Below are positions 3,922 to 19,226 of a stretch of 19,226 nucleotides of DNA, piece after piece (within the stretch, counting starts at the first letter, position 1; the number at the start of each line of letters is the position of its first letter). The notes below the pieces were generated by a model, which saw only the letters and a list, made by a program, of their open reading frames with translations, was not told where the DNA came from and did not search any database. The stretch covers positions 1 to 19,226 of the forward strand of contig SLPP01000250.1 of assembly GCA_007131945.1 (NCBI GenBank), in the 5' to 3' direction. Origin of the DNA: Paracoccaceae bacterium (GTDB taxonomy: Bacteria; Pseudomonadota; Alphaproteobacteria; Rhodobacterales; Rhodobacteraceae). Both the position numbers and the translations under genes were made by a program.

Positions 3922-3938
3922 CGTCGGTTCCCGTTCCT

Positions 3939-4026: not shown

Positions 4027-4055
4027 CTAAAACCACATTAGCATCGGGGGGACAA
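4027..4055 (-). promoter_or_regulatory. Candidate promoter of the cta operon
   Basis: On the minus strand, TTGTCC (4050-4055, 4 of 6 to the -35 consensus) is followed after 17 bases by TTTTAG (4027-4032, 3 of 6). This would start transcription near 4020 and give ctaC a leader of about 100 bases. The site lies in the AT-richer part of the divergent ctaC-tldD region. The match is moderate. Confidence 0.4.
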
Positions 4056-4083
4056 GACTGCGGATGCGTCATCGCGCCGCGTC

Positions 4084-4097
4084 TTGATCCCGGTCAA
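4084..4097. promoter_or_regulatory. FNR/FnrL-type binding site between ctaC and tldD
   Basis: The sequence is TTGAT-CCCG-GTCAA, a good match to the FNR/FnrL consensus TTGAT-N4-ATCAA with one change in the second half. Its centre is about 70 bases upstream of the candidate ctaC start point and about 36 bases before the tldD ATG. FnrL is the oxygen-sensing Fe-S regulator of Rhodobacteraceae. Since aa3 oxidase is a high-oxygen enzyme, repression at low oxygen is the natural reading, but that is inferred. Confidence 0.6.
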
Positions 4098-4126
4098 CGA
4101 CACCGCCGCCCAGCGAAAGGTCCGTC

Positions 4127-5581
4127 ATGTCCACCGCCTCCTCCTCCGCCGCCGCCCCGCGCGCCGAAGCCGAGCCCTTCCGCCCCTTCGACACCGCCTT
4201 CGACGAGCACCGCGCCCGCGCGATCCTGCGCGACGCCGTCGCCGGTGCCGAGGATGGCGAACTCTTCCTCGAACGGAAGCATTCCGAATCGCTCGTGCTG
4301 GACGACGGGCGCATCCGCTCGGCCGGTTTCGACGCGGCCGAGGGATTCGGGCTGCGCGCGGTGCGCGGCGCGGTGATCGGCTACGCGCATTCGACGCATA
4401 TGGACGAGCCTGCGCTGCGGCGCGCGTCCGAGACCGCGCGGCTGGCCGTGGCGGCGGGCGGCGGCACGCTCGCCGATCCGCCGGCGGGGACGAATCGGCG
4501 CCTCTACACCGATGCCGACCCGATCCTCGACGCGCCCTTCGCGCTGAAGATCGAGACGCTGCGCGCGATCGACGACTTCCTGCGCGCGCGCGATCGCCGC
4601 GTCGTGCAGGTCACCGCCTCGCTCGCCGCCTCGCTGCAGCAGGTCGCGATCCTGCGCCCCGAGGGGCAGGTCCTGACCGACACAAGGCCGATGGTGCGGC
4701 TCAACATCTCGGTCATCGTCGAGGCGGGCGGGCGGCGCGAGAGCGGCTCGGCCGGCGGCGGCGGGCGGATCGGGCTTTCCGGGCTCCTCGCGCCCGGACA
4801 CTGGCAGACGGTCGCGCTCGAGGCGCTGCGCATCGCCACGGTCAACCTCTCCGCCGAGCCGGCGCCGGCGGGCGTGATGGACGTGGTCCTCGGCCCCGGC
4901 TGGCCGGGGATCCTGCTGCACGAGGCCGTTGGCCACGGGCTCGAGGGCGATTTCAACCGCAAGGAAACCTCCGCCTTCGCCGGGCTGATGGGCAAGCGGG
5001 TGGCCGCGCCGGGCGTCACCGTCGTCGATGACGGCACGCTGCCCGACCGGCGCGGCTCGATCTCGATCGACGACGAGGGCACGGCAAGCTCGCGCACCGT
5101 GCTGATCGAGGACGGGATCCTCGTCGGCTACATGCAGGACCGGCAGAACGCGCGGCTGATGGGCATGGCGGCGACCGGCAACGGAAGGCGCGAGAGCCAT
5201 GCCCATGCGCCGATGCCACGGATGACCAACACGATCATGGAGGCCGGCGACGCCGAGCCCGGCGCGCTCGTGGCCGAGATGAAGGACGGCATCTACGCCG
5301 TCGGCTTCGGCGGCGGGCAGGTCGACATCACCAACGGCAAGTTCGTCTTCTCCTGCACCGAGGCCTACCGGGTGCGGGACGGCAGGGTCGGCGCGCCGGT
5401 CAAGGGCGCGACGCTGATCGGCGACGGGCCGACGGCGCTGCAGCACATCCGCGGGATCGGCAACGACATGGCGCTCGATCCCGGCATGGGCACCTGCGGC
5501 AAGCAGGGCCAGTGGGTGCCGGTCGGCGTCGGCCAGCCGAGCCTCCTGATCGGCGGGCTGACCGTGGGCGGGGTCGCCTGA
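4127..5581 (+). CDS. tldD: TldD family zinc metallopeptidase
   Basis: The 484-residue protein is of normal TldD length (PmbA/TldD, modulator of DNA gyrase family). The zinc motif HExxxH is clear in HEAVGHGLEGDFNRK (H265, E266, H270). Family segments around it include GWPGILLHEAVGHG, SISIDDEGT, GYMQDRQNARLMG and C-terminal GTCGKQGQWVPVG. TldD with TldE/PmbA forms a cytoplasmic heteromeric protease that degrades unfolded peptides and takes part in maturation of some peptide products. The ATG at 4127 follows GAAAGG by about 6 bases. It is divergent from ctaC, an arrangement seen in related bacteria, and convergent with the next gene 25 bases away. No tldE is in the window. Confidence 0.95.
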   Translation: MSTASSSAAAPRAEAEPFRPFDTAFDEHRARAILRDAVAGAEDGELFLERKHSESLVLDDGRIRSAGFDAAEGFGLRAVRGAVIGYAHSTHMDEPALRRASETARLAVAAGGGTLADPPAGTNRRLYTDADPILDAPFALKIETLRAIDDFLRARDRRVVQVTASLAASLQQVAILRPEGQVLTDTRPMVRLNISVIVEAGGRRESGSAGGGGRIGLSGLLAPGHWQTVALEALRIATVNLSAEPAPAGVMDVVLGPGWPGILLHEAVGHGLEGDFNRKETSAFAGLMGKRVAAPGVTVVDDGTLPDRRGSISIDDEGTASSRTVLIEDGILVGYMQDRQNARLMGMAATGNGRRESHAHAPMPRMTNTIMEAGDAEPGALVAEMKDGIYAVGFGGGQVDITNGKFVFSCTEAYRVRDGRVGAPVKGATLIGDGPTALQHIRGIGNDMALDPGMGTCGKQGQWVPVGVGQPSLLIGGLTVGGVA

Positions 5582-5606
5582 GGCGCGCCCCGCCGCCCGC
5601 GGCCGG

Positions 5607-6032
5607 TCAGTCCGCCTGCAATGTCGAGATGTATTCGACGAGTGCCAGGATCCGCCCGCGAACGAAGGCTTCGCGGTCGCCCGGCGACCACATCTCGCCC
5701 ATGAGCCCCGGCGCATCGCGGTCGTATCGCCGTCCCCAGGCGGGCATCTCCCGGGTGCCATGGGCGCCGACATCGACGCGACCATCGACCACCTCGTAGA
5801 GCCGGGCAAAGGGGAAAACCCCGCCGTTGTCGCGCTGCAGCGTCGTGAGATCGGGCATCGCCGTGTTCAGGTAGCCGGCCAGCGGCCCCTGTCCGCGCCC
5901 GTCGGCACCGTGGCAGTGCGCGCAGCTGTTCATGTATTCGTGCTGTCCGAGACTGAATCCCTCGGCGGTTGCCGAGGATGCCGACACGCCAAGGCCCGCG
6001 GCGAAAACGACTCCGACCAAACTGCGTTTCAT
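5607..6032 (-). CDS. Exported mono-haem class I cytochrome c
   Basis: This 141-residue protein carries a signal peptide (MKRSLVGVVFAAGLGVSASS, cleavage probable after ATA, residue 23). It has one haem-binding motif, C37-A-H-C40-H41, and a likely axial methionine, M96 in REMPAWG. After the signal it is a single small cytochrome c domain, so it should be periplasmic. The start at 6032 was chosen over upstream in-frame ATGs because GGGAGG lies 6-7 bases before it and the signal peptide follows at once. Its partner is unknown. It could feed electrons to an oxidase such as the aa3 enzyme encoded about 2 kb away, but nothing in the sequence proves that. It is convergent with tldD and divergent from dprA. 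Confidence 0.9.
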   Translation of the reverse strand: MKRSLVGVVFAAGLGVSASSATAEGFSLGQHEYMNSCAHCHGADGRGQGPLAGYLNTAMPDLTTLQRDNGGVFPFARLYEVVDGRVDVGAHGTREMPAWGRRYDRDAPGLMGEMWSPGDREAFVRGRILALVEYISTLQAD

Positions 6033-6080
6033 GATGATCCTCCCTAGATCACGCCGGACAGGCGGCCCGACGGCGGTCGA

Positions 6081-6109
6081 AGAATGTCCCCGATTCGAAA
6101 TGCTGACAA
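6081..6109 (-). promoter_or_regulatory. Candidate promoter of the cytochrome c gene
   Basis: On the minus strand TTGTCA (6104-6109, 5 of 6) and CATTCT (6081-6086, 3 of 6) are separated by 17 bases. Transcription would start near 6074, about 40 bases before the ATG. Spacing and the -35 are good; the -10 is weak. Confidence 0.4.
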
Positions 6110-6202
6110 GCGAATATGGCAATCTCGGAGATTGTTTGGCCGCAGCGGAGGAAGATGGCGACTTTCTGTCGATTTCAGGGCGCCGTTTATCTCTCGTTAA
6201 TC

Positions 6203-6217
6203 CTTTTCGCGCAAAAG
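6203..6217. other. Short palindrome upstream of dprA
   Basis: CTTTT-CGCGC-AAAAG is a 15-base inverted repeat 26 bases before the dprA ATG, inside an AT-rich patch of the 211-base cytochrome c-dprA gap. It could be an operator, but it matches no regulator site I can name. I found no convincing dprA promoter hexamers nearby. Confidence 0.25.
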
Positions 6218-6243
6218 TTGACTCGAATGAGACGAGGTCGGGG

Positions 6244-7404
6244 ATGGTCGGGGAATTGCTTTCTTCTCCCACACCCTTCACCCCACCCACCACGGAAGAA
6301 GACCGGCTATACTGGCTTCGTCTCATTCGCTCCCGCCGCGTCGGGCCGACGACCTTCCAGCGCCTTCTGACCGATCACCGCAGCGCCGAGGCCGCGCTCG
6401 CCGCGCTCCCCGAAATCGCCCGGGCGGCCGGGATCGACGATTACGAACCCTGCCCCGCCGACACCGCCCGCCACGAGATCGACGCCGCCCTGCGCGCCGG
6501 CGCGCGGATGCTCTGCCTCGGCGCCCCCGACTATCCCGAGGCCCTCGCCGGCATCGCCGATCCGCCGCCGGTCCTCTGGGCCGTCGGGCGCCCCGAGCTT
6601 GCGCAGCGCCCCGCCGTCGCGCTGGTCGGTGCGCGCAACGCCTCGAGCCTCGGCCAGCGGATGGCGCGCAAGCTCGCCGAGGGGCTTGGGCACCACGGTT
6701 TCACCCTCGTTTCGGGGCTGGCGCGCGGGGTCGACGCGGTCGCCCATGCCGCGACGATCGGGACCGGCACGATCGCGGTGCTCGCCGGCGGGGTCGACGT
6801 GCTCTACCCGACCGAGAATGCCGAACTCGGCCGCGACATCGGCCGCCGCGGGCTCAGGCTGTCGGAACAGCCCATCGGCCTGCAGCCGCAGGCGCGCCAC
6901 TTCCCGCGCCGCAACCGGATCATCGCCGGCCTCGCCCGCGCCGTCGTCGTCGTCGAGGCGGCCGAGGGCTCGGGCAGCCTGATCACCGCCCGCGACGCGC
7001 TCGAACAGGGCCGCGAGGTGCTCGCCGTGCCGGGCCATCCGCTGGATGCCCGCGCCGCCGGCTGCAACGCGCTGATCCGCGACGGCGCGCGGCTGGTGCG
7101 CGACGTCGCCGACATCCTCGAGGCGCTGGAGACGACGCTCGAACTGCCCCTGCCCGCCCCCGGACCGCGCCCGGCGACGGCCCCCGCCGCGCTGCCGCCG
7201 AAACCCGCGCGCCCCGCCGCCGTCCCCGACACGCTGGGCCTGCACCGGATGATCCTCGACCGGCTCGGCCCCTCACCGCTCGCCGAGGACCAGCTCATCC
7301 GCGACCTCGCCCTGCCCGCCGCGACGCTGGCCCCCGCGATCCTCTTTCTCGAGCTCGAGGGCCGGATCGAGCGCCAGCCCGGCGGCCTCCTCGCCCGCCT
7401 CTGA
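6244..7404 (+). CDS. dprA: DNA-processing protein DprA (Smf), RecA loader in transformation
   Basis: With the ATG at 6244 the protein has 386 residues, usual for DprA. An N-terminal helical region (RLYWLRLIRSRRVGPTTF) is followed by the Rossmann-like DprA domain: VALVGARNAS (126-134), VSGLARGVDAVAH (156-168), IAVLAGGVDVLYP, RNRIIAGLA and EGSGSLITARDALEQGR. A proline/alanine-rich linker and a C-terminal winged helix (about residues 330-386) follow. DprA binds incoming single-stranded DNA and loads RecA. The frame stays open upstream of 6244, but that DNA is AT-richer and does not look coding. The start is backed by alignment of GxxxxRLYWLRLI to the normal N-terminus; its ribosome-binding site is weak. 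The dprA-topA order is common in alphaproteobacteria. Confidence 0.93.
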   Translation: MVGELLSSPTPFTPPTTEEDRLYWLRLIRSRRVGPTTFQRLLTDHRSAEAALAALPEIARAAGIDDYEPCPADTARHEIDAALRAGARMLCLGAPDYPEALAGIADPPPVLWAVGRPELAQRPAVALVGARNASSLGQRMARKLAEGLGHHGFTLVSGLARGVDAVAHAATIGTGTIAVLAGGVDVLYPTENAELGRDIGRRGLRLSEQPIGLQPQARHFPRRNRIIAGLARAVVVVEAAEGSGSLITARDALEQGREVLAVPGHPLDARAAGCNALIRDGARLVRDVADILEALETTLELPLPAPGPRPATAPAALPPKPARPAAVPDTLGLHRMILDRLGPSPLAEDQLIRDLALPAATLAPAILFLELEGRIERQPGGLLARL

Positions 7405-7475
7405 CGCGCCGCCACCTGCGGCGATCGGCCCCGCCTGACGCCGCCCCCCTTGCAGCGTCGGTTTGCAAGCACAGA

Positions 7476-7504
7476 TTGACAGCACCGGCCGCTGCTCGCA
7501 TCTA
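7476..7504 (+). promoter_or_regulatory. Candidate topA promoter
   Basis: A perfect TTGACA (7476-7481) is followed after 17 bases by CATCTA (7499-7504), a poor -10. It lies in the 168-base dprA-topA gap, about 70 bases before the topA ATG. A small 6-base-stem hairpin right after the dprA stop (7407-7412 with 7418-7423) has no T-run, so readthrough from dprA is also possible. Confidence 0.35.
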
Positions 7505-7572
7505 TGCGCCGCGCGAGCGAGGTCGCGAGAGCGCCGCAATTCCGCGTTTGACGTGTTTGATCAGAGGCTTGC

Positions 7573-10173
7573 ATGGCTGTCGTCGTCGTCGAGTCGCCCG
7601 CAAAGGCGAAGACCATCAACAAGTATCTCGGCCCGGGCCACACCGTGCTCGCCTCCTTCGGCCATGTCCGCGACCTGCCGCCGAAGGACGGCTCGGTCGA
7701 TCCCGAGCAGGATTTCGACATGAAATGGGAAGTGGCCTCGGACAGCCGCAAGCATGTCCGCGCCATCGCCGAGGCGCTGAAATCCGACCCCGACTTGATC
7801 CTCGCCACCGACCCCGACCGCGAGGGCGAGGCGATCTCCTGGCACCTGACCGAGGCGCTTGCCAAGTCGCGCGCGCTGAAGAAGGACACGCCCGTAAAAC
7901 GCGTCGTCTTCAACGCCATCACGAAAGACGCGGTGACCCAGGCGATGAAGGCCCCGCGCGAGGTCGACATGGAGCTCGTCCGCGCCTATCTCGCCCGCCG
8001 CGCGCTCGACTACCTCGTCGGCTTCAATCTCTCGCCCGTCCTCTGGCGCAAGCTGCCCGGCGCCAAGTCCGCCGGCCGCGTCCAGTCGGTCTGCCTGCGC
8101 CTGATCGTCGAGCGCGAGATGGAAATCGAGGCCTTCCGGGCGCAGGAATACTGGACCGTCACCGCCGAGCTCGCCACCCCGCGCGGCCAGCTCTTCACCG
8201 CCCGCCTCGTCAGCCTCGCCGGCGAGAAGCTCGACAAGTTCGCGCTGAAGGACTCCACCGCCGCCGAGATGGCCGTGCAGGCGGTCACCAGCCGCGCGCT
8301 TTCGGTCCGGTCGGTCGAGGCGAAGCCCGGCAGCCGCAGCCCCGCCGCCCCCTTCATGACCTCGACCCTGCAGCAGGAAGCCAGCCGCAAGTTCGGCATG
8401 GGCGCCAAGCAGTGCATGTCAACCGCCCAGCGGCTCTACGAGGCCGGGCACATCACCTACATGCGCACCGACGGCATCGACATGGCGCCCGAGGCGGTGA
8501 TGGCCGCGCGCGACGAGATCAGGCGCCGCTACGGCGACGCCTACGTTCCGAAATCGCCGCGGATGTACAAGAACAAGGCCAAGAACGCGCAGGAAGCGCA
8601 TGAATGCATCCGCCCCACCGACATGGGCGCGGACCCCGACCGCCTGCGCCTTGCTGACGCCGACCAGCGCAAGCTCTATGACCTGATCTGGAAGCGCACC
8701 ATCGCCTGCCAGATGGAGGCGGCGCGGCTCGAACGCACGACGGTCGAGATCGGCTCCAGGGACGGCCAGGTCGGGCTGCGCGCGACCGGGCAGGTGGTGC
8801 TCTTCGACGGGTTCCTCAAGGTCTACGAGGAGGGCCGCGACGATGTCGAGGGTGACGACGACCGCCGCCTGCCGCAGATGGCCGAGGGCGACGCGCTTGA
8901 GAAGCGCAATGTCACGCCCGAACAGCATTTCACCCAGCCGCCCCCGCGCTACACCGAGGCGACGCTGGTCAAGCGGATGGAGGAGCTTGGCATCGGCCGG
9001 CCCTCGACCTATGCCTCGATCGTCACCACGATCCAGGACCGCGGCTACGTCCGGAAGGAAAAGAACCGCCTGATCCCCGAGGACAAGGGAAGGCTGGTGA
9101 CGATCTTCCTCGTCAACTACTTCCGCAAATATCTGGAATACGACTTCACCGCCGATCTCGAGGAACAGCTCGACGACATCTCGGCCGGCGAGCGCGACTA
9201 CAGGGAAGTGCTGGACCGCTTCTGGCGCGACTTTTCGGCGCATCTGGCCGAGACCTCGGATCTGCGCATCTCGGAAGTGCTGGAGAAGATCGACGAGATC
9301 CTGGCGCCGCATCTCTACCCGCCGCGCGAGGACGGCTCCGACCCGCGCCTCTGCCCGGGCTGCGGCAAGGGTCGGCTCAACCTGAAGACCGCGCGCTCGG
9401 GCGGGGCCTTCATCGGCTGTTCGAACTACCCCGACTGCCGCTACACCCGCCCGCTGGGCGCCGAGGAGGGCGATGCCGCCCTCTCGGGCGACGGCAGGCT
9501 GCTGGGTCACGACGCCGGCGATCCGATCTATCTGCGCACCGGCCGCTTCGGCCCCTATGTCCAGCGCGGCGAGGCGACCGAGGACAATCCCAAGCCCCCG
9601 CGCGCCAGCCTGCCCAAGGGCTGGACGCCGGACGAGTTGACGCTGGAGCGCGCGGTGACGCTTCTTGCCCTGCCGCGCAAGGTCGGCGACCATCCCGAGG
9701 ATGGCGAGCCGGTCGAGGCCGGCATCGGCCGCTACGGGCCCTACGTGAAACACGGCCGCATCTACGCCAACCTGCCCGAGGTCGAGGATGTCTTCACCGT
9801 CGGCATGAACCGGGCGCTGGACCTGATCGCCGCCAAGGCCAGCCGCGGCGGGCGCGGCTCGACAGCCGCGCCCCTGCGCGAACTCGGCGAGCACCCCGAG
9901 GGCGGCAAGGTCGCCGTCATGGCCGGCCGCTACGGCCCCTACGTGAAATGGGAAAAGGTCAACGCGACGCTGTCGAAGGGCATGGAACCCGAAACGGTGA
10001 CGCTGGAGCAGGCGCTCGAGCTGATCGCCGCCAAGGGGGGCGCGAAGGGCAAGAAGAAGGCCGCCGCGCGCGGCAAGACCGCCGCCAAGCCGAAAAGCGC
10101 AGGCAAGTCCAAGACCGCCGCAAAGCCCGCGACGGCGAAAAAGACCGCACCCGGACGCAAGGCCACGGGCTGA
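7573..10173 (+). CDS. topA: DNA topoisomerase I (type IA)
   Basis: The 866-residue enzyme relaxes negative supercoils through a 5'-phosphotyrosyl intermediate. The N-terminal Toprim domain begins VVVVESPAKAKTINKYLG and holds the acidic DxDxE triad (D80, D82, E84 in ATDPDREGEA). The catalytic tyrosine is Y296 in GHITYMRTDG. One four-cysteine zinc ribbon is visible at about residues 594-617 (CPGCGKG...GCSNYPDC). It is followed by repeats built on GRFGPYVQRG, GRYGPYVKHG and GRYGPYVKWE, the alphaproteobacterial topoisomerase C-terminal repeats, then a lysine/alanine-rich tail of about 50 residues. AGAGG precedes the ATG. Identification is secure. Confidence 0.98.
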   Translation: MAVVVVESPAKAKTINKYLGPGHTVLASFGHVRDLPPKDGSVDPEQDFDMKWEVASDSRKHVRAIAEALKSDPDLILATDPDREGEAISWHLTEALAKSRALKKDTPVKRVVFNAITKDAVTQAMKAPREVDMELVRAYLARRALDYLVGFNLSPVLWRKLPGAKSAGRVQSVCLRLIVEREMEIEAFRAQEYWTVTAELATPRGQLFTARLVSLAGEKLDKFALKDSTAAEMAVQAVTSRALSVRSVEAKPGSRSPAAPFMTSTLQQEASRKFGMGAKQCMSTAQRLYEAGHITYMRTDGIDMAPEAVMAARDEIRRRYGDAYVPKSPRMYKNKAKNAQEAHECIRPTDMGADPDRLRLADADQRKLYDLIWKRTIACQMEAARLERTTVEIGSRDGQVGLRATGQVVLFDGFLKVYEEGRDDVEGDDDRRLPQMAEGDALEKRNVTPEQHFTQPPPRYTEATLVKRMEELGIGRPSTYASIVTTIQDRGYVRKEKNRLIPEDKGRLVTIFLVNYFRKYLEYDFTADLEEQLDDISAGERDYREVLDRFWRDFSAHLAETSDLRISEVLEKIDEILAPHLYPPREDGSDPRLCPGCGKGRLNLKTARSGGAFIGCSNYPDCRYTRPLGAEEGDAALSGDGRLLGHDAGDPIYLRTGRFGPYVQRGEATEDNPKPPRASLPKGWTPDELTLERAVTLLALPRKVGDHPEDGEPVEAGIGRYGPYVKHGRIYANLPEVEDVFTVGMNRALDLIAAKASRGGRGSTAAPLRELGEHPEGGKVAVMAGRYGPYVKWEKVNATLSKGMEPETVTLEQALELIAAKGGAKGKKKAAARGKTAAKPKSAGKSKTAAKPATAKKTAPGRKATG

Positions 10174-10200
10174 GGCGGGCCGGCCGGCAAGGCAATGAAT

Positions 10201-10278
10201 CCGGGTTTAAATCCGGTTAAATTGTTATGGGCAACATAGCTTTTTCAAAAGCTTGCGCGTTTGTGCACGCGCGCACAC
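10201..10278. other. AT-rich palindromic cluster between topA and scoA
   Basis: The topA-scoA gap (225 bases) holds three adjacent symmetric elements. CCGGGTTTAAATCCGG at 10201-10216 is self-complementary if one G-T pair is allowed. AGCTTTT-TC-AAAAGCT at 10238-10253 is perfect apart from its two-base spacer. TGTGC-ACGCGC-GCACA at 10263-10278 is near perfect. No T-run follows in a place suited to a terminator. They may be operators for scoAB, whose candidate promoter starts 65 bases downstream. The binding proteins are unknown. Confidence 0.35.
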
Positions 10279-10342
10279 CTGCCCCCCTCCACCGCCGGCA
10301 ACGCCGCGTCCGCCCCCTGCCCGCCGCGTCCCGCGCCGCTTG

Positions 10343-10371
10343 TTGACTTCGCTGCATCGCCGCGCCAGAAC
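10343..10371 (+). promoter_or_regulatory. Candidate scoAB promoter
   Basis: TTGACT (10343-10348, 5 of 6) and CAGAAC (10366-10371, 3 of 6) have 17-base spacing. The implied start near 10378 leaves a short leader with GGGGGAG just before the scoA ATG at 10399. Confidence 0.4.
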
Positions 10372-10398
10372 GGGGGCGGACAATCTGCGGGGGAGCGC

Positions 10399-11094
10399 AT
10401 GCACAAGATCTACGGCTCGGCGACCGAGGCCCTGGACGGGCTTCTCTTCGACGGAATGACCATCGCCGCCGGCGGCTTCGGCCTCTGCGGCATCCCCGAG
10501 CTTCTGATCGCGGCCATCCGCGACGCGGGCGTGAAGGACCTGACCATCGCCTCGAACAACGCCGGCGTCGACGATTTCGGGCTCGGGCTGCTCCTGCAGA
10601 CGCGGCAGGTCAGGAAGATGATCTCCTCCTATGTCGGCGAGAACGCCGAGTTCATGCGCCAGTACCTCTCGGGCGAGCTGGAGCTGGAATTCAACCCGCA
10701 GGGCACGCTCGCCGAGCGGATGCGCGCGGGCGGCGCCGGCATCCCCGGCTTCTACACCAGGACCGGCGTCGGCACGGTGATCGCCGAGGGCAAGGATCAC
10801 AAGGAATTCGACGGCGAGACCTACATCCTCGAGCGCGGCATCGTCGCCGACCTCGCCATCGTCAAGGCCTGGAAGGCCGACGACACCGGCAACGCCGTCT
10901 TCCGCAAGACCGCGCGCAACTTCAACCCGCCGGCGGCGACCTGCGGGCGTGTCTGCGTGATGGAGGTCGAGGAGATCGTGCCGCGCGGCTCGCTCGACCC
11001 CGACTGCATCCATCTGCCCGGCATCTACGTGCACCGCCTGATTCAGGGCGAGCACGAGAAGCGGATCGAACAGCGCACCGTGCGCAAGGCTTGA
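10399..11094 (+). CDS. scoA: 3-oxoacid (succinyl-CoA:3-ketoacid) CoA-transferase subunit A
   Basis: The 231-residue protein is of usual size for the A subunit of a two-gene family I CoA-transferase. It carries the glycine-rich [10 protein letters not shown] segment (25-34), [26 protein letters not shown] and [13 protein letters not shown], all typical of SCOT/ScoA. With ScoB it moves CoA between succinate and acetoacetate (or a related 3-keto acid), linking ketone-body or polyhydroxybutyrate breakdown to the TCA cycle. The in-frame upstream ATG at 10261 was rejected: the ATG at 10399 has GGGGGAG about 6 bases before it and gives the normal N-terminus. scoB follows after 13 bases. Exact substrate preference cannot be read from sequence. 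Confidence 0.93.
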
Positions 11095-11107
11095 GGAGGG
11101 CACGACC

Positions 11108-11737
11108 ATGGCATGGGACCGCAACCAGATGGCCGCCCGCGCGGCGCAGGAACTCGAGGATGGGATGTATGTCAACCTCGGCATCGGCATCCCGACGCTC
11201 GTTGCCAACTACATCCCCGACGGCGTCGACGTGACGCTGCAGTCCGAGAACGGCATGCTCGGCATCGGCCCCTTCCCGACCGAGAACGAGGTCGATGCCG
11301 ACCTGATCAACGCCGGCAAGCAGACGGTGACCGAGCTTGCCCGCACCGCCTATTTCGACAGCGCGCAGAGCTTCGCGATGATCCGCGGCGGCAAGATCGA
11401 CATGGCGATTCTCGGCGCGATGGAAGTGGCCGAGAACGGCGACATCGCCAACTGGATGATCCCCGGCAAGCTCGTCAAGGGCATGGGCGGGGCGATGGAT
11501 CTCGTCGCCGGGGTCAAGCGCATCGTCGTGGTGATGGACCACACCAACAAGGCGGGCGACTCGAAGGTGCTGAGGGAATGCACCCTGCCGCTGACCGGCA
11601 AGGGCGTCGTCAACCGCATCATCACCAACCTCGGCGTGATGGACGTGGTCGCTGGCGGGCTGAAGATCGTCGAGCTGGCCGACGGCGTCTCCGAGGAGGA
11701 GCTGCGCAACGCGACCGAGGCAACGATCGTCGGCTAG
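11108..11737 (+). CDS. scoB: 3-oxoacid (succinyl-CoA:3-ketoacid) CoA-transferase subunit B
   Basis: The 209-residue B subunit carries the catalytic glutamate, E47, in the family I signature [13 protein letters not shown]; this residue forms the enzyme-CoA thioester. Other family segments are [30 protein letters not shown] and [26 protein letters not shown] lies about 7 bases before the ATG, directly after the scoA stop, so the two subunits are co-transcribed. A strong intrinsic terminator lies 54 bases after the stop, closing the operon. Confidence 0.95.
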
Positions 11738-11750
11738 CGCGGCGCGCAGC

Positions 11751-11779
11751 TTGACATGCGCCCCCCCGCACCGCATGAA
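11751..11779 (+). promoter_or_regulatory. Candidate promoter of lepB-rnc-era, overlapping the scoB 3' region
   Basis: A perfect TTGACA (11751-11756) is followed after exactly 17 bases by CATGAA (11774-11779, 3 of 6). Transcription would begin near 11786, just before the terminator hairpin at 11792, and run into lepB at 11844. A promoter is needed here because the terminator cuts lepB off from scoAB. Confidence 0.45.
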
Positions 11780-11791
11780 GCCTGCCACATC

Positions 11792-11819
11792 GCGCCGTCC
11801 CCGGGGCGGCGCTTTTTTT
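11792..11819 (+). terminator. Intrinsic terminator of scoAB
   Basis: GCGCCGTCC (11792-11800) pairs with GGGCGGCGC (11804-11812): 9 pairs including one G-T, with a 3-base loop. Seven T residues follow at 11813-11819. This is the clearest rho-independent terminator in the window. It lies 54 bases after the scoB stop and only 24 bases before the lepB start. Confidence 0.85.
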
Positions 11820-11843
11820 CGACCCATCCACGACAGGCCCCGC

Positions 11844-12632
11844 ATGAGCAGCGCAAGCGAGAAGAAGGACGGCTGGTGGGAGACGGTGAAGACCGTCTTC
11901 TGGGCGCTGGTGATCGCGGGCATCTTCCGCACGCTCTTCTTCCAGCCGTTCTGGATCCCCTCGGGTTCGATGAAGGAGACGCTGCTGATCGGCGATTTCC
12001 TCTTCGTCAACAAGATGGCCTACGGCTATTCGCGCTATTCCTGCCCCTTCGCCATGTGCCCCTTCTCGGGGCGCGTCTTCGCCACCGAGCCCGAGCGCGG
12101 CGACATCGTCGTCTTCCGCCACCCGGTGACCGGCGCGGACTTCATCAAGCGCGTCATCGGCATGCCGGGCGACCGCGTGCAGATGCGCGACGGCATCCTG
12201 CATCTCAACGACCAGGCGCTGCCGCAGGAACCCGCCGGCCAGTTCGCCGAGATCTACGAACGCCAGGGCTCGGTCGGCCAGTTCCCGCGCTGCGCCAACG
12301 CGCCGGTGGGGCAGGGCGGCACCTGCCTGAAGGATCGCTACATCGAGACGCTGCCCGGCGGGCGCTCCTTCCCGGTCCTCAACATCGAGGATGGCGGCTT
12401 CGGCGACAACACGCCCGCCTTCACCGTCCCCGACGGGCATTTCTTCTTCATCGGCGACAACCGCGACAACTCGGTCGACAGCCGCGTGCCGCAGAACGCC
12501 GGCGGCGTCGGCATGGTGCCCTTCGATCACCTCATCGGGCGGGCGAACATGGTCATGTTCTCCTCGGCCGGCCGCTCGATGCTCGCCTTCTGGACCTGGC
12601 GCTCGGACCGGTTCTTCCACCGGCTGCAATGA
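11844..12632 (+). CDS. lepB: Signal peptidase I
   Basis: The 262-residue type I signal peptidase is anchored by one N-terminal membrane segment (about residues 17-35) with its active site on the periplasmic side. The catalytic serine is S42 in [10 protein letters not shown] and the general base lysine is K102 in [11 protein letters not shown]; the C-terminal box [11 protein letters not shown] is present. It removes signal peptides from exported proteins such as the cytochrome c in this window. C67 and C72 (SCPFAMCPF) lie close together and could form a disulfide. The ATG at 11844 was chosen because longer versions would read through the scoAB terminator. Its stop overlaps the rnc start by ATGA, and lepB-rnc-era is a conserved order. 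Confidence 0.96.
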
Positions 12633-13336
12633 TGGCGGCGCGCGCGGCAGGGCGGCTCTCGGCCGAGATGGCGGCCTTCGCCGCGCGCCTCGGCCACGAT
12701 TTCGCCCGCCCCGAACTCCTGCAGCGCGCCCTCACCCATGCCTCGATCGGCTCCAAGACCCGGCCCGACAACCAGCGGCTGGAATTCCTCGGCGACCGGG
12801 TTCTGGGGCTGATCATGTCCGAGGCGCTGCTCGCCGCCGACCGCGAGGCGACCGAGGGACAGCTTGCGCCGCGCTTCAACGCGCTCGTCCGCCGCGAGAC
12901 CTGTGCCGAGATCGCCCGCGAGATCGATCTCGGCGCGGTTCTGCGCATGGGCCGGTCCGAAATGCTGACCGGCGGCCGGCGGAAGGAGGCGATTCTCGCC
13001 GACGCGATGGAGGCGGTGATCGCCGCGGTCTATCTCGACGCCGGGATCGAGGCCGCCCGTAAGATGGTGCTCCGGCTCTGGAAGGACCGGCTGAGCGGCG
13101 TCGAGGCCGATGCGCGCGACGCCAAGACGATGCTGCAGGAATGGGCCCAGGCGCGCGGCGCCCCGCCCCCGGACTATGCCGAGGTGGCGCGCGAGGGCCC
13201 GCCGCACGCGCCGCGCTTCACGATCGAGGTGCGGCTCGCCACAGGCGAGGCCGCCCGCGCCAGCGCCGGTTCCAAGCGCCAGGCCGAGCAGGCGGCGGCC
13301 CGTGCGCTCCTCGACACGCTGGAGGGCGCGACATGA
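12629..13336 (+). CDS. rnc: Ribonuclease III
   Basis: The 235-residue enzyme cleaves double-stranded RNA in rRNA and mRNA processing. The signature [13 protein letters not shown] (48-60) carries catalytic acidic residues E52 and D56; the second pair is D125 and E128 in [15 protein letters not shown] double-stranded RNA-binding domain fills about residues 158-232 (KTMLQEWAQ...[18 protein letters not shown]). The start could be either of two adjacent ATG codons (12629 or 12632); the first gives an ATGA overlap with lepB. The stop overlaps the era ATG in the same way, so lepB, rnc and era are translationally coupled. Confidence 0.96.
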
Positions 13337-14247
13337 CCGAGACCCGCGCCGGTTTCGTGGCCCTGATCGGCGAGCCCAATGCCGGCAAGTCGACGCTTCT
13401 CAACCGCATGGTCGGGGCCAAGGTCTCGATCGTCACGCACAAGGTGCAGACCACGCGCACGCGCATCCGCGGCGTCGCCATCGAGGGCCGGGCGCAGATC
13501 GTCTTCGTCGACACGCCCGGCCTCTTCCGACCCCGCCGCCGGCTCGACCGCGCCATGGTCGCCGCCGCCTGGGGCGGGGCCGCCGATGCCGATGTCGTCG
13601 TCCTCCTGATCGAGGCGCATCGCGGCCTGACCCCCGGCGTGCAGGCAATCCTCGACACCCTGCGCGACCGCTTCCCCTCCGGCCGCACCGTGGCGCTCGC
13701 CATCAACAAGATCGACAAGGTCAGGGCCGAGGCGCTGCTGGAGCTGTCGAAAGCCCTCAACGACGCCTTCCCCTTTGCCCGCACCTTCATGATCTCTGCC
13801 GAGAAGGGCCACGGCGTCGAGGATCTGAAACGCTGGCTCGCCGAGAGCCTGCCCGAGGGTCCCTGGCTCTATCCCGAGGACCAGATCGCCGACCTGCCGC
13901 TGCGGATGATCGCCGCCGAGATGACGCGCGAGAAATGCACGCTGCGGCTGCACCAGGAACTGCCCTACGAACTCACCGTCGAGACCGAGAGCTGGCAGGA
14001 GCGCAAGGACGGCTCGGTGCGCATCGACCAGCTCATCTATGTCGCCCGCGACGGCCACAAGGGCATCGTGCTCGGCCACAGGGGCGAGACGATCAAGGCG
14101 ATCAGTCAGGCGGCGCGGGCCGAGATCGCCGCCTTCCTCGACCGCCCCGTGCATCTCTTCCTGCAGGTCAAGGTGCGTCCGAACTGGCTGGAGGAGGCCG
14201 AGCGCTACGGCGAGATGGGGCTCGACTTCCGCGACGGCGATGCCTGA
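13333..14247 (+). CDS. era: GTPase Era, 30S ribosome assembly factor
   Basis: The 304-residue protein has the N-terminal GTPase motifs G1 GEPNAGKST (13-21), G3 DTPG (60-63) and G4 NKID (125-128). A C-terminal KH domain carries the loop [15 protein letters not shown], which binds the 3' end of 16S rRNA. Era acts late in 30S subunit maturation, next to RNase III both in function and on the chromosome. It overlaps rnc by ATGA. Length and all motifs are normal. Confidence 0.97.
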
Positions 14248-14322
14248 ACTCGCATCGTCTCGAACCGGCCGGGCGATGCCGGGCGGCCAGTCCGGCGCGC
14301 CCGAAGGACAGGGCCACGGCCG

Positions 14323-14658
14323 ATGACGCCGCGGCTGACCGCGAGCTTCTGGGTGCGGGCCTATCTCAACCGGCTGCGGCTGGCGAACATCCCGGCCTAT
14401 GTCCTCGCCCGCGGCGATGCCTCGGCCGGCGCGGTGATGGTGAAGCTCGCCACGCTCGACGGGCAGGCGCGGCTTTTCCAGCGCATCTTCGATCCGATGG
14501 CCGATCGCCGCCGCTGGATCGAGCTTGCCGCCGGACCCGAGGCCGAGATCGACGCCCGCATCGCCCGCGACCGGGCCCGCGACCGCGACCTCTGGGTGAT
14601 CGAGGTCGAGGACCGGCAGGGCCGCCACCTGCTCGAGGAACCGGGCCTCGACGAATGA
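14323..14658 (+). CDS. DUF1491 family protein, function unknown
   Basis: The 111-residue protein contains FWVRAYLNRLRLANIPAYVLARGDASAGAV, DGQARLFQR and DRDLWVIEVEDRQGRHLLEEPG. I recognise this as the alphaproteobacterial DUF1491 family, which often lies between era and recO. No signal peptide, membrane segment or catalytic motif is visible, so it is probably a small cytoplasmic protein. It follows era by 75 bases, close enough to be co-transcribed. Its usual downstream neighbour recO is missing here; the next gene is convergent. No function is assigned. Confidence 0.82.
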   Translation: MTPRLTASFWVRAYLNRLRLANIPAYVLARGDASAGAVMVKLATLDGQARLFQRIFDPMADRRRWIELAAGPEAEIDARIARDRARDRDLWVIEVEDRQGRHLLEEPGLDE

Positions 14659-14665
14659 TACCAAA

Positions 14666-14733
14666 TCCGGTTGATCCGTTCGGCAACATCTGCGGCGTTG
14701 TTCCGCCCGTGCTTGCCGAAGGGATCAAGCGGA
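14666..14733. repeat. 68-base imperfect inverted repeat after DUF1491
   Basis: Bases 14666-14686 pair with 14713-14733 at 19 of 21 positions (two G-G mismatches), around a 26-base loop that itself holds a 4-base stem (14692-14695 with 14703-14706). No T-run follows, so it is not a standard terminator. The element begins 8 bases after the DUF1491 stop. It may be a dispersed palindromic repeat or miniature element, or a bidirectional mRNA 3'-end structure. The left flank shares AAATCCGGTT and GGCAACAT with the topA-scoA gap (10209-10237). Confidence 0.6.
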
Positions 14734-14785
14734 AGCCGTATGACCGGGGCTTTCCGGGCCACCTCCGGCACCCACCGGCTGCCGG

Positions 14786-14801
14786 CGTGCAAATTTGCAC
14801 G
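14786..14801. promoter_or_regulatory. 16-base perfect palindrome, possible operator
   Basis: CGTGCAAATTTGCACG is a perfect palindrome, flanked further out by GCCGG (14781-14785) and CCGGC (14804-14808), which also pair. The TGCAAATTTGCA core resembles a homodimeric regulator site. TTTGCAAA half-sites are known for short-chain acyl-CoA regulators of Rhodobacter, but the match is loose. No gene start lies within reach on either strand, so its target is unclear. Confidence 0.4.
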
Positions 14802-14893
14802 AACCGGCAAAATATTGAGATTCAATGCATAAATACCTTCCGTTAACCACATTGAAAGGTCCCGCTCCATGCGCCCCGGTCGCACCCCGAGCG

Positions 14894-14911
14894 CCCGGCG
14901 CCTGCGCCGGG
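14894..14911. other. GC-rich stem-loop in the convergent gap
   Basis: CCCGGCG (14894-14900) pairs perfectly with CGCCGGG (14905-14911) around a CCTG loop. Only two T residues follow on the plus strand. It could be part of a structured RNA or a weak transcription stop. Confidence 0.25.
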
Positions 14912-15095
14912 TTCCCCCGCGGCACGCCCGGGCGGGAAAGTTTCATTGCGGTCAACGGGATCGATTTCCTGCCTTATATCAGATAGTTGCGAAGATGTGC
15001 GCATGCGCGCACCGCCTCCCGGCGGGTCGCCTCGCGGGTTCGGGGAGGAAAGGACGGAGACCGCCTCGGCCAGGCGCCCCGCGATCGCGGCAGGC

Positions 15096-15923
15096 TCAGG
15101 GCCGGACGAGCCGGTAGCCCTGCCCCTTGCGCTCGACCCGGTGGAAGGCCGGGTGCAGGAAATGCCCGCCGGTGAACAGCGCCCCATCCGCGGCGAGTTC
15201 GTCGAGCAGCCGCTTGCGCGTGTCCCGCGCGGTCGGAATGTCCATGTCGAAGGCGATCGCGACCTCGGGATCGGCCGCCTGCAGCGCCGGCGCGTGGATG
15301 ATGTCGCCGACATGCAGCAGCTGCGCCCCGCCCGAGGCGAGCCGCCAGCCGCTGTGGCCCGGCGTGTGTCCCGGCAGGGTGATCGGCGTGAGCCCCGGCG
15401 CGATCTCGTCCTTCGGGCCAAAGAGCTTCAGCCGGTCGCCATAGGCCGCCAGCACCGCCCGCGCGAGCTTGCCCCAGTCGCTGATCGGGTCCCCGGTGGT
15501 CTTGCTCTCGTCGCTCCAGAAGGCGTGCTCGGCCTCGGGCACATGGAGCGTCGCATTGGGAAAGACCGCCTTTCCCTCGGCGGTGATCATGCCGGCGATG
15601 TGGTCGGGATGCAGATGCGTGGCAACCAGCGTGTCGACCTCCTCGGGGGCAACGCCGGCCTCCCTCATCGCCTCGGGAAGAAAACCGCAGGTCGGCCCGA
15701 AAAGGTCGCGCGGGCCCGAATCGGTCAGGATCACGCGCCCGCCGGTGCGGATCAGCATGGCGTTGAAATTCGTCTCGATCTCGCTCCGGCCCGCCTCCCG
15801 GAGCAGTTCCCGGATATGCGCCTCGTCGGTCTCGGGAAAGTATTCGGCCGGAAAGCTGATCCCCCCGTCGGTCAGGATCGTAACTTCGGCCTCGCCGATG
15901 GTCCGTGTCGCCGTCCGGCTCAT
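15096..15923 (-). CDS. Metallo-beta-lactamase-fold hydrolase, substrate unknown
   Basis: The 275-residue protein has the metallo-beta-lactamase-fold signature HxHxDH at H103-L-H105-P-D107-H108. A later metal histidine lies in TLPGHTPGHSGW (H186), the bridging aspartate D207 in LLHVGDIIH, and a C-terminal histidine in TGGHFLHPAF. No signal peptide is seen (start MSRTATRTIG), so it is probably cytoplasmic. AAAGGGAG precedes the ATG at 15923; longer in-frame versions would read through the divergent promoter region. The family includes lactonases, thioesterases and sulfur-transfer enzymes, and no subfamily can be fixed. It is divergent from the arsenate operon with 121 bases between starts, so the two may share control. 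Confidence 0.85.
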   Translation of the reverse strand: MSRTATRTIGEAEVTILTDGGISFPAEYFPETDEAHIRELLREAGRSEIETNFNAMLIRTGGRVILTDSGPRDLFGPTCGFLPEAMREAGVAPEEVDTLVATHLHPDHIAGMITAEGKAVFPNATLHVPEAEHAFWSDESKTTGDPISDWGKLARAVLAAYGDRLKLFGPKDEIAPGLTPITLPGHTPGHSGWRLASGGAQLLHVGDIIHAPALQAADPEVAIAFDMDIPTARDTRKRLLDELAADGALFTGGHFLHPAFHRVERKGQGYRLVRP

Positions 15924-15951
15924 GTCGCGCTCCCTTTCGCTGTTCGAGCGG

Positions 15952-15980
15952 ATGCTAGCCATGCTGCAAGGTGTCGGCAA
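15952..15980 (-). promoter_or_regulatory. Candidate promoter of the metallo-hydrolase gene
   Basis: On the minus strand TTGCCG (15975-15980, 4 of 6) and TAGCAT (15952-15957, 4 of 6) are 17 bases apart. The implied start lies about 20-25 bases before the ATG, leaving room for the ribosome-binding site. Confidence 0.45.
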
Positions 15981-16031
15981 GTCTCCGCCGCGCGGCCGAA
16001 GATGCCTCTTGCTGCGGCGCAGAATATATGC

Positions 16032-16045
16032 TGTTTTGAAAAACA
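16032..16045. promoter_or_regulatory. Candidate ArsR operator overlapping the start of the ArsR-ArsC gene
   Basis: TGTTTT-GA-AAAACA is a perfect inverted repeat (6-base arms, 2-base spacer). Its last base is the A of the ATG at 16045. Just upstream is TATATG (16025-16030), a fair -10. ArsR-family repressors often bind dyads that overlap their own promoters, so autoregulation is likely. It also lies upstream of the divergent hydrolase gene. Confidence 0.45.
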
Positions 16046-16836
16046 TGGAACAACAGGTCGCCCGGCTCTCCGCCCTCGCCCACCCGCAGCGGCTCTCGGT
16101 CTTCCGGCTGCTCATGCGCCGTTATCCCGCCCATGTCCCGGCGGGCGAGATAGGCGCAATCCTGAACATCCGCCCCTCGACGCTCAGCGGCTATCTGTCC
16201 GACCTCGCCGAGGCCGGGCTGATCGAGCAGCAGCGCCGCGGTACCTCGCTGCGCTACGCCGCCGTCCTCGACGCGGCCGAGGGGCTGACCGACTATCTCT
16301 GGCGCGACTGCTGCCGCGCCCGCACGCTGCCGCCCGCGCCGGCCCGGACGGGGCGCGTGCGCAACGTCCTCTTCCTCTGCGCGGCCAATTCCGCCCGTTC
16401 GCTGATGGCCGAGGCGATCCTGCGCGAGGTGGCCGGCCGCCGGTTCGAGGCCTTCTCGGCAGGCACATCGCCGCGCGCCGAGCCGAACCCGCAGGCCATC
16501 ACCATGCTGCGCGAACTCGGCCACGAGACCGACACGCTGTATTCCAAGCCGGCGAGCGCCTTCCATGATCCCGACGCACCGCAGATGGATTTCGTCATCA
16601 CCGTCTGCGACCGCGCCGCCAGCGTAGACCTCCCGGTCCTGCCCGGCGCTCCGGTGGCGGCGCACTGGCCGGTTCCCGACCCGGTCGAACTGGCCACGCC
16701 CGAAGCCTATGCCGATGCCTACCTGACGTTACGCGCGCGGATCGAGGCGCTGGCGGATCTGCCCGCCGACCTGCCGAGACCGGAGCTGCAGCGCGCGGTC
16801 GACCGCATCGCCCGTCTCCACCCCGAAACAGCCTGA
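16045..16836 (+). CDS. ArsR-family regulator fused to an ArsC/LMW-phosphatase-like domain
   Basis: The 263-residue protein has two parts. Residues 1-90 are an ArsR winged helix ([16 protein letters not shown], recognition helix near [18 protein letters not shown]). Residues about 105-258 are a low-molecular-weight phosphatase/arsenate reductase fold with the oxyanion loop C112-AANSA-R118 and a likely acid, D212, in HWPVPDP. The helix-3 CxC arsenite site is absent, but C89-C90 follow the winged helix. A second ArsC-domain cysteine, C188, is in ITVCD; the third, resolving cysteine expected about seven residues later is missing (SVDLPVLPG there). It leads the GAPDH-arsJ operon, 8 bases before the next gene. 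No ribosome-binding site precedes the ATG, so a leaderless or nearly leaderless mRNA is possible. Whether it reduces arsenate is doubtful. Confidence 0.88.
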
Positions 16837-16844
16837 GGCCCGCC

Positions 16845-17840
16845 ATGACCCGCTACGCCATCAACGGTTTCGGCCGGATCGGCAAGCTCATGCTTCGCCC
16901 GCTCCTCGAACGCGGCGCCGAGGTCGTCTTCGTCAATGACGCCGAGGGCGACCCGGCGATGCATGCGCATCTCATGGAATTCGACTCGGTCCATGGCCGC
17001 TGGCCCGCGCGATTCGAACACGATGCCGAAAGCATCTCGATCGACGGCACCCGGATCGCGGTGACGAAGTCGCGCAAGCTCGAGGAGTTGCCGCTTGCCG
17101 GCGTCGATGTCCTGATCGACTGCACCGGCGTGCACAAGACCGCCGCCAAGCTTGCCCCCGCCTTCGCCGCCGGCGTCCGGCGCGTCGTCGTTTCGGCCCC
17201 GGTGAAGGAGTCCGAAGCGGCGAACATCGTCTGGGGCGTCAACGAGGGCATCTTCGACCCGGCACGCCACCGGATGATCAGCGCGGCGAGTTGCACCACC
17301 AACTGCGTCGCCCCGGTGGTCAAGGTCCTGCACGAGGCGATCGGCATCCGGCACGGATCGTTCACCACGATCCACGACGTCACCAACAGCCAGACGATCA
17401 TCGACCGCCCGGCGAAGGACCTGCGCCGCGCGCGCTCGGCGCTTCTGAACCTGATACCGACGACCACCGGCTCGGCCACCGCGATCGTGCAGATCTACCC
17501 CGAACTCGAGGGCCGGCTGGACGGGCATGCCGTGCGGGTGCCGCTTCTGAACGCCTCGCTGACCGACTGCGTGTTCGAGCTGGAGCGGCCGACAAGTGTC
17601 GAGGAAGTCAACGCGCTGTTCCGCGCCGCGGCCGGGGGCTCGCTTGCCGGCATCCTCGGCTACGAGGACCGGCCGCTGGTCTCGACCGATTTTCGCAGCG
17701 ACACCCGCTCGTCGATCATCGACGGGCCCGCAACCATGGTGGTGAACGGCACGCAGGTGAAGGTCTACGCCTGGTATGACAACGAGATGGGCTATGCCCA
17801 CCGGCTCGTCGACGTGGCGCTGATGGCAGGCGCGGCGTGA
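16845..17840 (+). CDS. ArsJ-associated glyceraldehyde-3-phosphate dehydrogenase
   Basis: The 331-residue protein is of normal GAPDH length. The NAD-binding loop is NGFGRIG (7-13), with N31-D32 for the adenosine ribose region. The catalytic cysteine is C150 in SAASCTTNC and the catalytic histidine H177 in [14 protein letters not shown]; housekeeping enzymes usually read TTIHSYTNDQ. That variant and the position next to arsJ mark it as the arsenic-operon paralogue. In the GAPDH/ArsJ pathway it uses arsenate in place of phosphate to make 1-arseno-3-phosphoglycerate. It lies 8 bases after the ArsR-ArsC gene and overlaps arsJ by GTGA, so it is firmly in the operon. A general glycolytic role cannot be excluded. 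Confidence 0.92.
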
Positions 17841-19090
17841 CCGACCGGCCGCTCGCCGCCTATGCGGCGGTGACGGCGGCCTACTGGGCTTTCATGCTCT
17901 CGGACGGCGCGCTCAGGATGCTGGTGCTCCTGCATTTCCACGTCCTGGGCTTCTCGCCCGTGCAGCTTGCCTACCTGTTCCTGCTCTACGAGCTCGCCGG
18001 GATCGTCACTAACTATTCCGCCGGCTGGATCGCCGCGCGCTACGGCCTGACGCGCACGCTCTATGCCGGGCTCGGGCTTCAGGTGGCGGCGCTTCTTGCG
18101 CTGGCGCTGCTGGACCCGGGCTGGGCGATCGGGCTTTCGGTCGCCTATGTGATGGCCGTGCAGGGCGCCTCGGGCGTGGCCAAGGATCTCGCCAAGATGT
18201 CTTCGAAAAGCGCGGTGAAGCTGCTCGCGCCGGCCGAGGGCGACGGGCTCTTCCGCTGGGTCGCGGCGCTCACGGGCTCAAAGAACGCGGTCAAGGGGAT
18301 CGGTTTCCTGCTGGGCGCCGGGCTGCTGGCGACGGTGGGCTTCGTGCCGGCGGTGCTGATCATGGCCGCGGTCCTCGCGGTGATCCTCGTGGCGGTCCTG
18401 GTCGGCATGCCCGAAGGCCTGCCCGCCGGCCGCAAGGGGGTGAAGTTCACCCAGGTCTGGTCGCGCGAGCCCGACATCAACCGCCTGGCCTTCGCCCGCG
18501 TCTTCCTCTTCGGCGCCCGCGATGTCTGGTTCGTCGTCGGCATCCCGATCTACTTCTACGCCGTCCTCTCGGACGGGACGGCCGAGGGCAACCGCGCGGC
18601 CTTCTTCCTCATCGGCAGCTTCATGGCGATCTGGATCATCCTCTACGGCGCGGTGCAGGCTGCCGCCCCCCGGCTTCTGCGCGCGTCTCGCCGCCCCGCC
18701 CCCGACCTCGTCACCGGGGCGCGGCACTGGGTGTTGGCGCTCGCCGTAGTACCAGCGGTGCTGGCCGCCATCGTCTGGGCAGCCGGCGCCCCGGCGCCCT
18801 GGCTGACGGCGGTTCTCGTTGCCGGGCTTCTCGTCTTCGGCGCGCTCTTCGCCATCAACTCGGCGCTGCATTCCTGGCTGATCCTCGCCTTCGCGCAGGA
18901 AGCGCGGGTGACGATGGATGTGGGCTTCTACTACATGGCCAATGCCGCGGGCCGGTTGCTGGGCACGCTGCTCTCGGGTCTGAGCTACCAGGTCGGCGGG
19001 CTTGCGCTGTGCCTGGTGACGGCTGCGGCGATGCTCGGGCTGAGTGCTGTCGGCGCGGGGCGGTTGCGGGGGCGTGTGCCGACCGGGTGA
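17837..19090 (+). CDS. arsJ: ArsJ organoarsenical efflux permease (major facilitator family)
   Basis: The 417-residue polytopic protein has about 11-12 hydrophobic segments. Its start [20 protein letters not shown] and the cytoplasmic loop [17 protein letters not shown] are features I recognise as ArsJ. It exports 1-arseno-3-phosphoglycerate made by the adjacent GAPDH, which then breaks down outside to arsenate and 3-phosphoglycerate, giving arsenate resistance without reduction. The start is a GTG at 17837 sharing bases with the GAPDH stop (GTGA), implying tight translational coupling. No terminator is visible in the 59 bases before the tRNA gene. The assignment rests on both sequence and context. 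Confidence 0.92.
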
Positions 19091-19109
19091 TGGGTGGCGC
19101 GGATTGGAC

Positions 19110-19138
19110 TTGCAAAACTTCCAGCCGCAGGATACCAG
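19110..19138 (+). promoter_or_regulatory. Candidate tRNA-Pro promoter
   Basis: TTGCAA (19110-19115, 4 of 6) and TACCAG (19133-19138, 3 of 6) are 17 bases apart. Transcription would begin about 5 bases before the mature tRNA. Readthrough from arsJ is also possible. Confidence 0.35.
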
Positions 19139-19149
19139 CCGCGTCGGGA

Positions 19150-19226
19150 CGGAGTGTAGCTCAGCCTGGTAGAGCACTGTCTTCGGGAGGCAGGGGCCGG
19201 AGGTTCGAATCCTCTCACTCCGACCA
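19150..19226 (+). tRNA. tRNA-Pro, anticodon CGG
   Basis: A full cloverleaf can be drawn. Acceptor arms CGGAGTG/CACTCCG pair at all seven positions, the D-arm is GCTCAGCCTGGTAGAGC, and the anticodon stem CTGTC/GGCAG encloses the loop TTCGGGA, giving anticodon CGG for proline codon CCG. The T-arm has GGAGG-TTCGAAT-CCTCT with one G-T pair. C1-G72 and A73 are typical of bacterial tRNA-Pro. The encoded CCA is the last three bases of the window, so downstream context is not visible. CCG is expected to be a common proline codon in such GC-rich genes. Confidence 0.96.

Follow-up and report, generated by a model that had tools for sequence, protein, structure and literature searches.

The window analyzed here, a 19,226-nucleotide stretch of DNA from a Paracoccaceae bacterium (assembly GCA_007131945.1, contig SLPP01000250.1, positions 1 to 19,226), is one complete contig of a fragmented genome and carries, at the head of a gapdh-arsJ operon, a gene for an ArsR-ArsC fusion protein of 263 amino acids (16045..16836, forward strand). 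We propose that this fusion may be a repressor whose ArsC domain is an arsenate input module rather than a cycling detoxification enzyme, a reading to which we give a probability of roughly 0.45. The evidence, drawn from sequence comparison and a predicted fold, suggests that the ArsC domain serves in arsenate sensing via binding or a single turnover.

Translation and profile matches defined the two parts of the fusion. Residues 1 to ~100 form an ArsR-type winged helix (Pfam HTH_20, 29.5 bits against a cut-off of 27), the DNA-binding domain of ArsR/SmtB repressors, and residues 104 to 240 form a domain of the ArsC/low-molecular-weight protein tyrosine phosphatase fold (LMWPc/ArsC, 54.1 bits against a cut-off of 23.2). 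An AlphaFold2 model had a mean predicted local distance difference test (pLDDT) score of 93.7, and the nearest named proteins were from Pararhodobacter. The complete cysteine set is C89, C90, C112, and C188. The initial annotation had described a CX5R loop and C188, with no third cysteine in the ArsC domain, and translation and alignment confirmed this. The oxyanion loop, C112 to R118, is encoded at 16378..16398, and C188, the equivalent of the second catalytic cysteine of ArsC (C82), at 16606..16608. At the position of the resolving cysteine (C89 of pI258 ArsC) the fusion has a leucine, L196 (16630..16632), which aligns opposite a leucine in 1lk0, a structure titled as a C89L form. This is the same change that traps S. 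aureus ArsC as a disulfide. Thus, of the three features of arsC_pI258 enzymes, the loop and the second cysteine are present and the resolving cysteine is absent. The score against TIGR02691 (arsC_pI258) was 47.7 bits, under the curated 174.3, but this shortfall has little weight because four fusions with all three cysteines (85.3, 78.3, 50.3, and 63.1 bits) also failed that cut-off. The score against TIGR02689, the glutaredoxin-type arsenate reductase, was 34.8 bits, under the curated 157.6.

Three routes were used to sample relatives of the fusion: similarity to P0001 within the genus and family; alignment A1 in named genomes, from which the best 80 of 268 confirmed loci were taken; and a collection outward from arsJ that began with the first 84 rows of the ArsJ list, of which 80 were used and 4 were already in the set. 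All three samples came from one bacterial family or close to it, and duplicate removal left 164 distinct fusions, the window fusion included. A metagenomic set comprised 120 rows, the window fusion and its 119 nearest sequences, and a wider residue comparison covered 218 sequences. A plasmid search, with 250 records, yielded only relatives with less than 60% identity.

The initial annotation had explained the missing cysteine by the GAPDH/ArsJ context and had called for fusions from arsJ operons to be scored against those from acr3/arsB operons. That comparison did not tie the loss to arsJ. The third cysteine was kept in 139 of 144 arsJ-linked fusions overall (102/107 without acr3 and 37/37 with arsJ plus acr3) and in all four acr3-only fusions, so arsJ context was rejected as a correlate of the loss. 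One of those four (L109; genome G409, 6012-6896) is an ACR3-adjacent fusion whose ArsR and ArsC parts are separated by an in-frame stop, and arsJ was not found in its genome. The third cysteine was also kept in the one gapdh-only fusion (cut by a contig end) and in five of six fusions with none of arsJ, acr3, gapdh, and a metallo-beta-lactamase (MBL) gene as neighbors, and in none of nine MBL-only fusions. Among the sequences compared, the loss is instead characteristic of a single Pararhodobacter clade whose fusion genes are divergent to an MBL gene. The loci with an MBL homologue in this divergent arrangement are L092, L093, L094, L098, L102, L103, L105, L106, L108, L112, L113, and L115. The 14 members of the MBL clade, counting L114 although it showed no MBL gene, formed one group in the tree, with a support of 99. 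The third cysteine is missing from all four fusions that have MBL as well as gapdh-arsJ neighbors (the window fusion, L092, L093, and L094), and the sole further arsJ-linked fusion without it, L320, has a serine. The loss in the window fusion is more than chance because it is common to three clade relatives and purifying selection acts on the ArsC domain.

The ArsC pocket was more constant than the other cysteine positions. C112, N115, R118, S119, C188, and D212 were invariant across the 144 arsJ-linked fusions. Other cysteine positions varied: 9 of these fusions had an incomplete C89-C90 pair, 16 had no linker cysteine, and 5 had no C196. For example, the only cysteines of the arsJ-linked fusions L099, L100, L101, L104, and L107 are C112, C188, and C196, with none in the ArsR part, and these proteins head gapdh-arsJ despite having no AfArsR-like As(III) site. 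The invariant set corresponds to what arsenate binding and one turnover would need, as would be expected if the signal enters via the ArsC domain. The pocket never changes in these fusions, whereas some of them have lost the resolving cysteine or the ArsR-domain As(III) site, a pattern that supports, indirectly, the ArsC domain as the input.

Fusions of the MBL clade that are no longer beside arsJ had lost R118 and C188 in 10 of 10 cases and C112 in 9 of 10. To judge by their sequences, the degenerate, MBL-divergent fusions without gapdh-arsJ (L098, L102, L103, L105, L106, L108, L112, L113, and L115) are repressors with a dead reductase domain. The suggestion of the initial annotation that the domain is the sensor of the repressor, not a reductase, thus has indirect support from the retention of C112, R118, and C188 in 144/144 arsJ-linked fusions and the loss of the pocket away from arsJ. 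The missing cysteine alone does not exclude reduction, because other thiol-coupled ArsCs of the same fold exist.

Most of the sampled arsJ loci have a fused regulator. It was found at 63 of the 80 loci sampled from the ArsJ list; the 17 loci without a full fusion include 6 with an unfused ArsR and 3 cut by contig ends, and at 8 of the 80 no ArsR was recognized within ~3.5 kb upstream of gapdh-arsJ. The unfused ArsRs at arsJ operons kept their CC...C cysteines in all six cases. Pairs of gapdh-arsJ without a recognized adjoining ArsR were seen at L372, L273, L282, L292, L299, L315, L323, L324, and L342.

The ligand, chemistry, allostery, and targets in the mechanism that follows are proposals. 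The fusion would repress the gapdh-arsJ operon and probably also the divergent MBL gene. Arsenate would enter the CX5R loop and be attacked by C112, and C188 could then free arsenite, leaving a C112-C188 disulfide after one turnover. The arsenate-bound or oxidized ArsC domain would loosen the DNA-binding part. In the account of B. subtilis ArsC available in PMC6193951, the P-loop binds arsenate, C10 attacks, and C89 resolves the C10-C82 disulfide, an intermediate that is described as trappable only by mutating C89. Because it has no resolving cysteine, the window fusion would stop at the C112-C188 intermediate, and leaving this disulfide state would require a different thiol, for example glutathione/glutaredoxin. 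Thioredoxin would be able to reset the same switch in the more typical members of the family, by way of their third cysteine. A more far-reaching version, which we regard as tentative, is that ArsR-ArsC fusions of arsJ operons in general are single-turnover arsenate sensors. The C112-C188 disulfide would be the signal, the As(III) site and the resetting cysteine would be accessory, the window fusion would be a natural C89L-like form, and a side branch would have lost the chemistry and become a regulator of the MBL hydrolase with a new operator.

Several observations weigh against an arsenate input module. The 120 metagenomic rows have cysteine at the third position in 68 cases, leucine in 39, and another residue in 13; C112 is replaced by G in 18 and by S in 1, and the C112G forms are incapable of the proposed chemistry. 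The close relatives P0006, P0011, P0013, and P0014 have an intact pocket together with the third cysteine, and P0010, also close, has the third cysteine with C112 and R118 absent. Because these five keep the third cysteine, C196 requires at least 6 changes, not 2, when the metagenomic sequences are included; with these relatives considered, the third cysteine was lost repeatedly or partly regained. The association of C196 loss with the MBL gene and that of pocket loss with the absence of arsJ each go back to a single event, for which a sign test cannot reach significance. The ratio of nonsynonymous to synonymous substitution rates (dN/dS) was ~0.11 in both domains of the window fusion and L092, a rough value because dS was 0.9 to 1.25, and 0.107 to 0.462 for the ArsC domain over 13 pairs, and purifying selection on the ArsC domain is compatible with any function. 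ArsC2 of Corynebacterium glutamicum, of the same fold, is mycothiol/mycoredoxin dependent according to the title of 3rh0. Furthermore, a preference for arsenate can arise differently in an ArsR: TtSmtB of Thermus thermophilus is reported to be more responsive to arsenate than to arsenite and is presented by its authors as the first ArsR to prefer arsenate (PMC5658604). Finally, C89-C90 is still present in the window fusion, and As(III) binding by AfArsR is reported to need Cys95 and Cys96 but not strictly Cys102 (PMC8470949), so the window fusion may sense arsenite.

It is possible, if doubtful, that the fusion responds to As(III) as an AfArsR-type ArsR does, with C89 and C90 binding arsenite that comes from the fused domain (with glutathione/glutaredoxin as the resetting thiol) or from an ArsC-like protein encoded on another contig, C405. 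The vicinal pair, encoded at 16309..16314, aligns with the CC of AfArsR (6j05) and is kept in all four fusions with both MBL and arsJ, and the genome has ACR3 as well as that ArsC-like protein. A C102S form of AfArsR is reported still to bind As(III), less tightly (PMC8470949). However, the pair is broken while the ArsC pocket is kept in 9 of 144 arsJ-linked fusions, and the clade of the window fusion has lost the linker cysteine that occupies the place of the third AfArsR ligand; the C90-C112 interval of the window fusion contains no cysteine and hence no counterpart of C102.

It is unlikely, in our estimate, that the ArsC domain is being lost, with the repressor co-opted to control the MBL gene in response to a different signal and the window fusion an early stage of active-site decay. 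In the wider comparison of 218 sequences, 156 of the 157 with the third cysteine keep C112, R118, and C188, compared with 27 of the 61 without it. The other 34 comprise 17 that lost C112 and kept R118, 7 that kept C112 and lost R118, and 10 that lost both. Replacement of C112 by G with the arginine kept was weakened as a general rule, since it holds in one metagenomic subclade (among P0032-P0057) and not across the 61 sequences; in that subclade the domain would be an oxyanion loop without a nucleophile. Decay is also consistent with the loss of the pocket in MBL-only relatives, with a higher dN/dS in the ArsC than in the ArsR domain in four of five degenerate pairs, and with the operator-like motifs described below. 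The idea that the domain of the window fusion is a decaying pseudogene piece was rejected on the rough dN/dS of near 0.11 in both domains. Least probable of the alternatives is a phosphatase or arsenatase function like that of VarH from the Vibrio cholerae var operon, with 1-arseno-3-phosphoglycerate as the hydrolyzed substrate. The CX5R loop is kept, as is D212, which we take to be the general-acid position. This function would leave the invariance of C188 and the fusion to a repressor unexplained, as such phosphatases are not known to need an equivalent of C188. Thermus thermophilus ArsC is reported to have phosphatase activity (PMC8949286), and a role as an arsenatase has been proposed for VarH, a Cys-based phosphatase whose gene belongs to an arsJ operon (PMC9601151).

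The intergenic region common to the MBL and fusion genes (15924..16044) differs from its counterparts at other arsJ operons. The motif A(A/T)TTC-N7..12-GAA(A/T)T precedes 103 of the 140 remaining arsJ-linked fusions, compared with 0.15 expected from base shuffles, and was 20 bases long in 101 of the 103; it was also upstream of three of four acr3-only and four of six other-context fusions. In the MBL clade it was found in 2 of 14 (L094, and L114, perhaps by chance), and the window fusion does not have it. Instead, CTGC-N3-GCAG is upstream of 8 of the 14 MBL-clade fusions (the window fusion, L092, L098, L102, L105, L106, L112, and L115) and of 0/140 other arsJ-linked, 0/4 acr3-only, and 0/6 other fusions. 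L093, L094, and four degenerate members of the clade do not have it. In the window this operator-like palindrome is CTGCGGCGCAG (16012..16022); in the window alone, one was found versus 0.68 expected, which is not above chance. Its distribution makes CTGC-N3-GCAG a likely, predicted new shared operator of the MBL clade. A scan of 15850-16120 for sigma-70-type promoters gave no match.

The genes behind the fusion were correctly named in the initial annotation: the ArsJ-associated GAPDH gene (16845..17840, forward; NF033735, 527.2 bits, cut-off 450) and arsJ (17837..19090, forward; NF033734, 524.6 bits, cut-off 400) are adjacent on the same strand, as in GAPDH/ArsJ arsenate-export operons. A tRNA-Pro (CGG) gene follows arsJ directly at the contig end (19150-19226). 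The divergent gene (15096..15923, reverse strand) encodes an MBL-fold hydrolase of 275 amino acids (Pfam Lactamase_B, 63.8 bits), which scored 209.3 bits against the AidB quorum-quenching lactonase model (NF047979, cut-off 360). MBL homologues elsewhere were beside a fusion at 0 of 29 loci (L213-L241, flanks of ~1.5 kb). Further upstream, 5932-14658 includes dprA, topA, lepB, a DUF1491 gene, and a gene for a GTPase with a KH domain, read as Era-type.

That no arsenite efflux gene is present holds for the window but not for the genome, which is 92% complete: ArsB was found nowhere in it, and one copy of ACR3 is on C405 (387.9 bits, cut-off 282.8). The arsenic island there (L116, 2579-14851) carries ArsR, ACR3, an ArsC-like protein that scored 95.4 bits against a cut-off of 174.3, a phosphate/phosphonate-type binding protein, a sensor kinase, and a protein read as universal-stress-type. 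It also encodes a TAT-type molybdopterin oxidoreductase, possibly of the Arx type, whose closest match is ArrA (419.8 bits, short of the 1600 required; 6cz7, E 1.5e-113). Because of these arsenic genes on C405, the window operon is not the sole arsenic system of the genome.

Each of the known systems resembles the window fusion in part. Compared with thioredoxin-coupled ArsCs (S. aureus pI258 and B. subtilis; 1ljl, 1jl3, and 1lk0), it has leucine for the third cysteine and is fused to a repressor. C. glutamicum ArsC2 (3rh0) and Synechocystis ArsC (2l17, named a glutaredoxin arsenate reductase) share the fold but are single-domain proteins. AfArsR of Acidithiobacillus ferrooxidans has a vicinal pair, C95/C96, matched by C89/C90, whereas the window fusion lacks the third cysteine and has a C-terminal ArsC domain. 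TtSmtB, likened here by description, is likewise an ArsR-family repressor, and the account consulted describes no fused ArsC domain for this arsenate-preferring protein. ArsRM of Brevundimonas sp. M20 also fuses ArsR to an arsenic enzyme, there a methyltransferase, and binds its own promoter (PMC10190100). Gene order and domain make-up are like those of other Rhodobacteraceae arsRC-gapdh-arsJ(-acr3) operons, from which the window operon differs in lacking the linker and third cysteines, in being divergent to an MBL gene, and in its operator-like palindrome. In the V. cholerae var operon (arsR-varG-varH-arsJ), GAPDH/ArsJ arsenate resistance is likewise under ArsR control and accompanied by a protein of the Cys-phosphatase type, but this protein, VarH, is not fused to the repressor and resembles dual-specificity phosphatases (PMC9601151).

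ArsR-ArsC fusions have been noted before (PMC6205960, PMC6514093), and the open-licence literature, surveyed at listing level, yielded no functional study of such a fusion as an arsenate sensor. Operons with arsJ are thought to deal with arsenate and form no arsenite, and the V. cholerae authors ask for further work on how their ArsR is induced (PMC9601151). The conservation pattern makes a clear test feasible with a handful of point variants, and the fusion could supply a direct arsenate biosensor part. One lineage may show an enzyme domain becoming regulatory, with several stages still alive.
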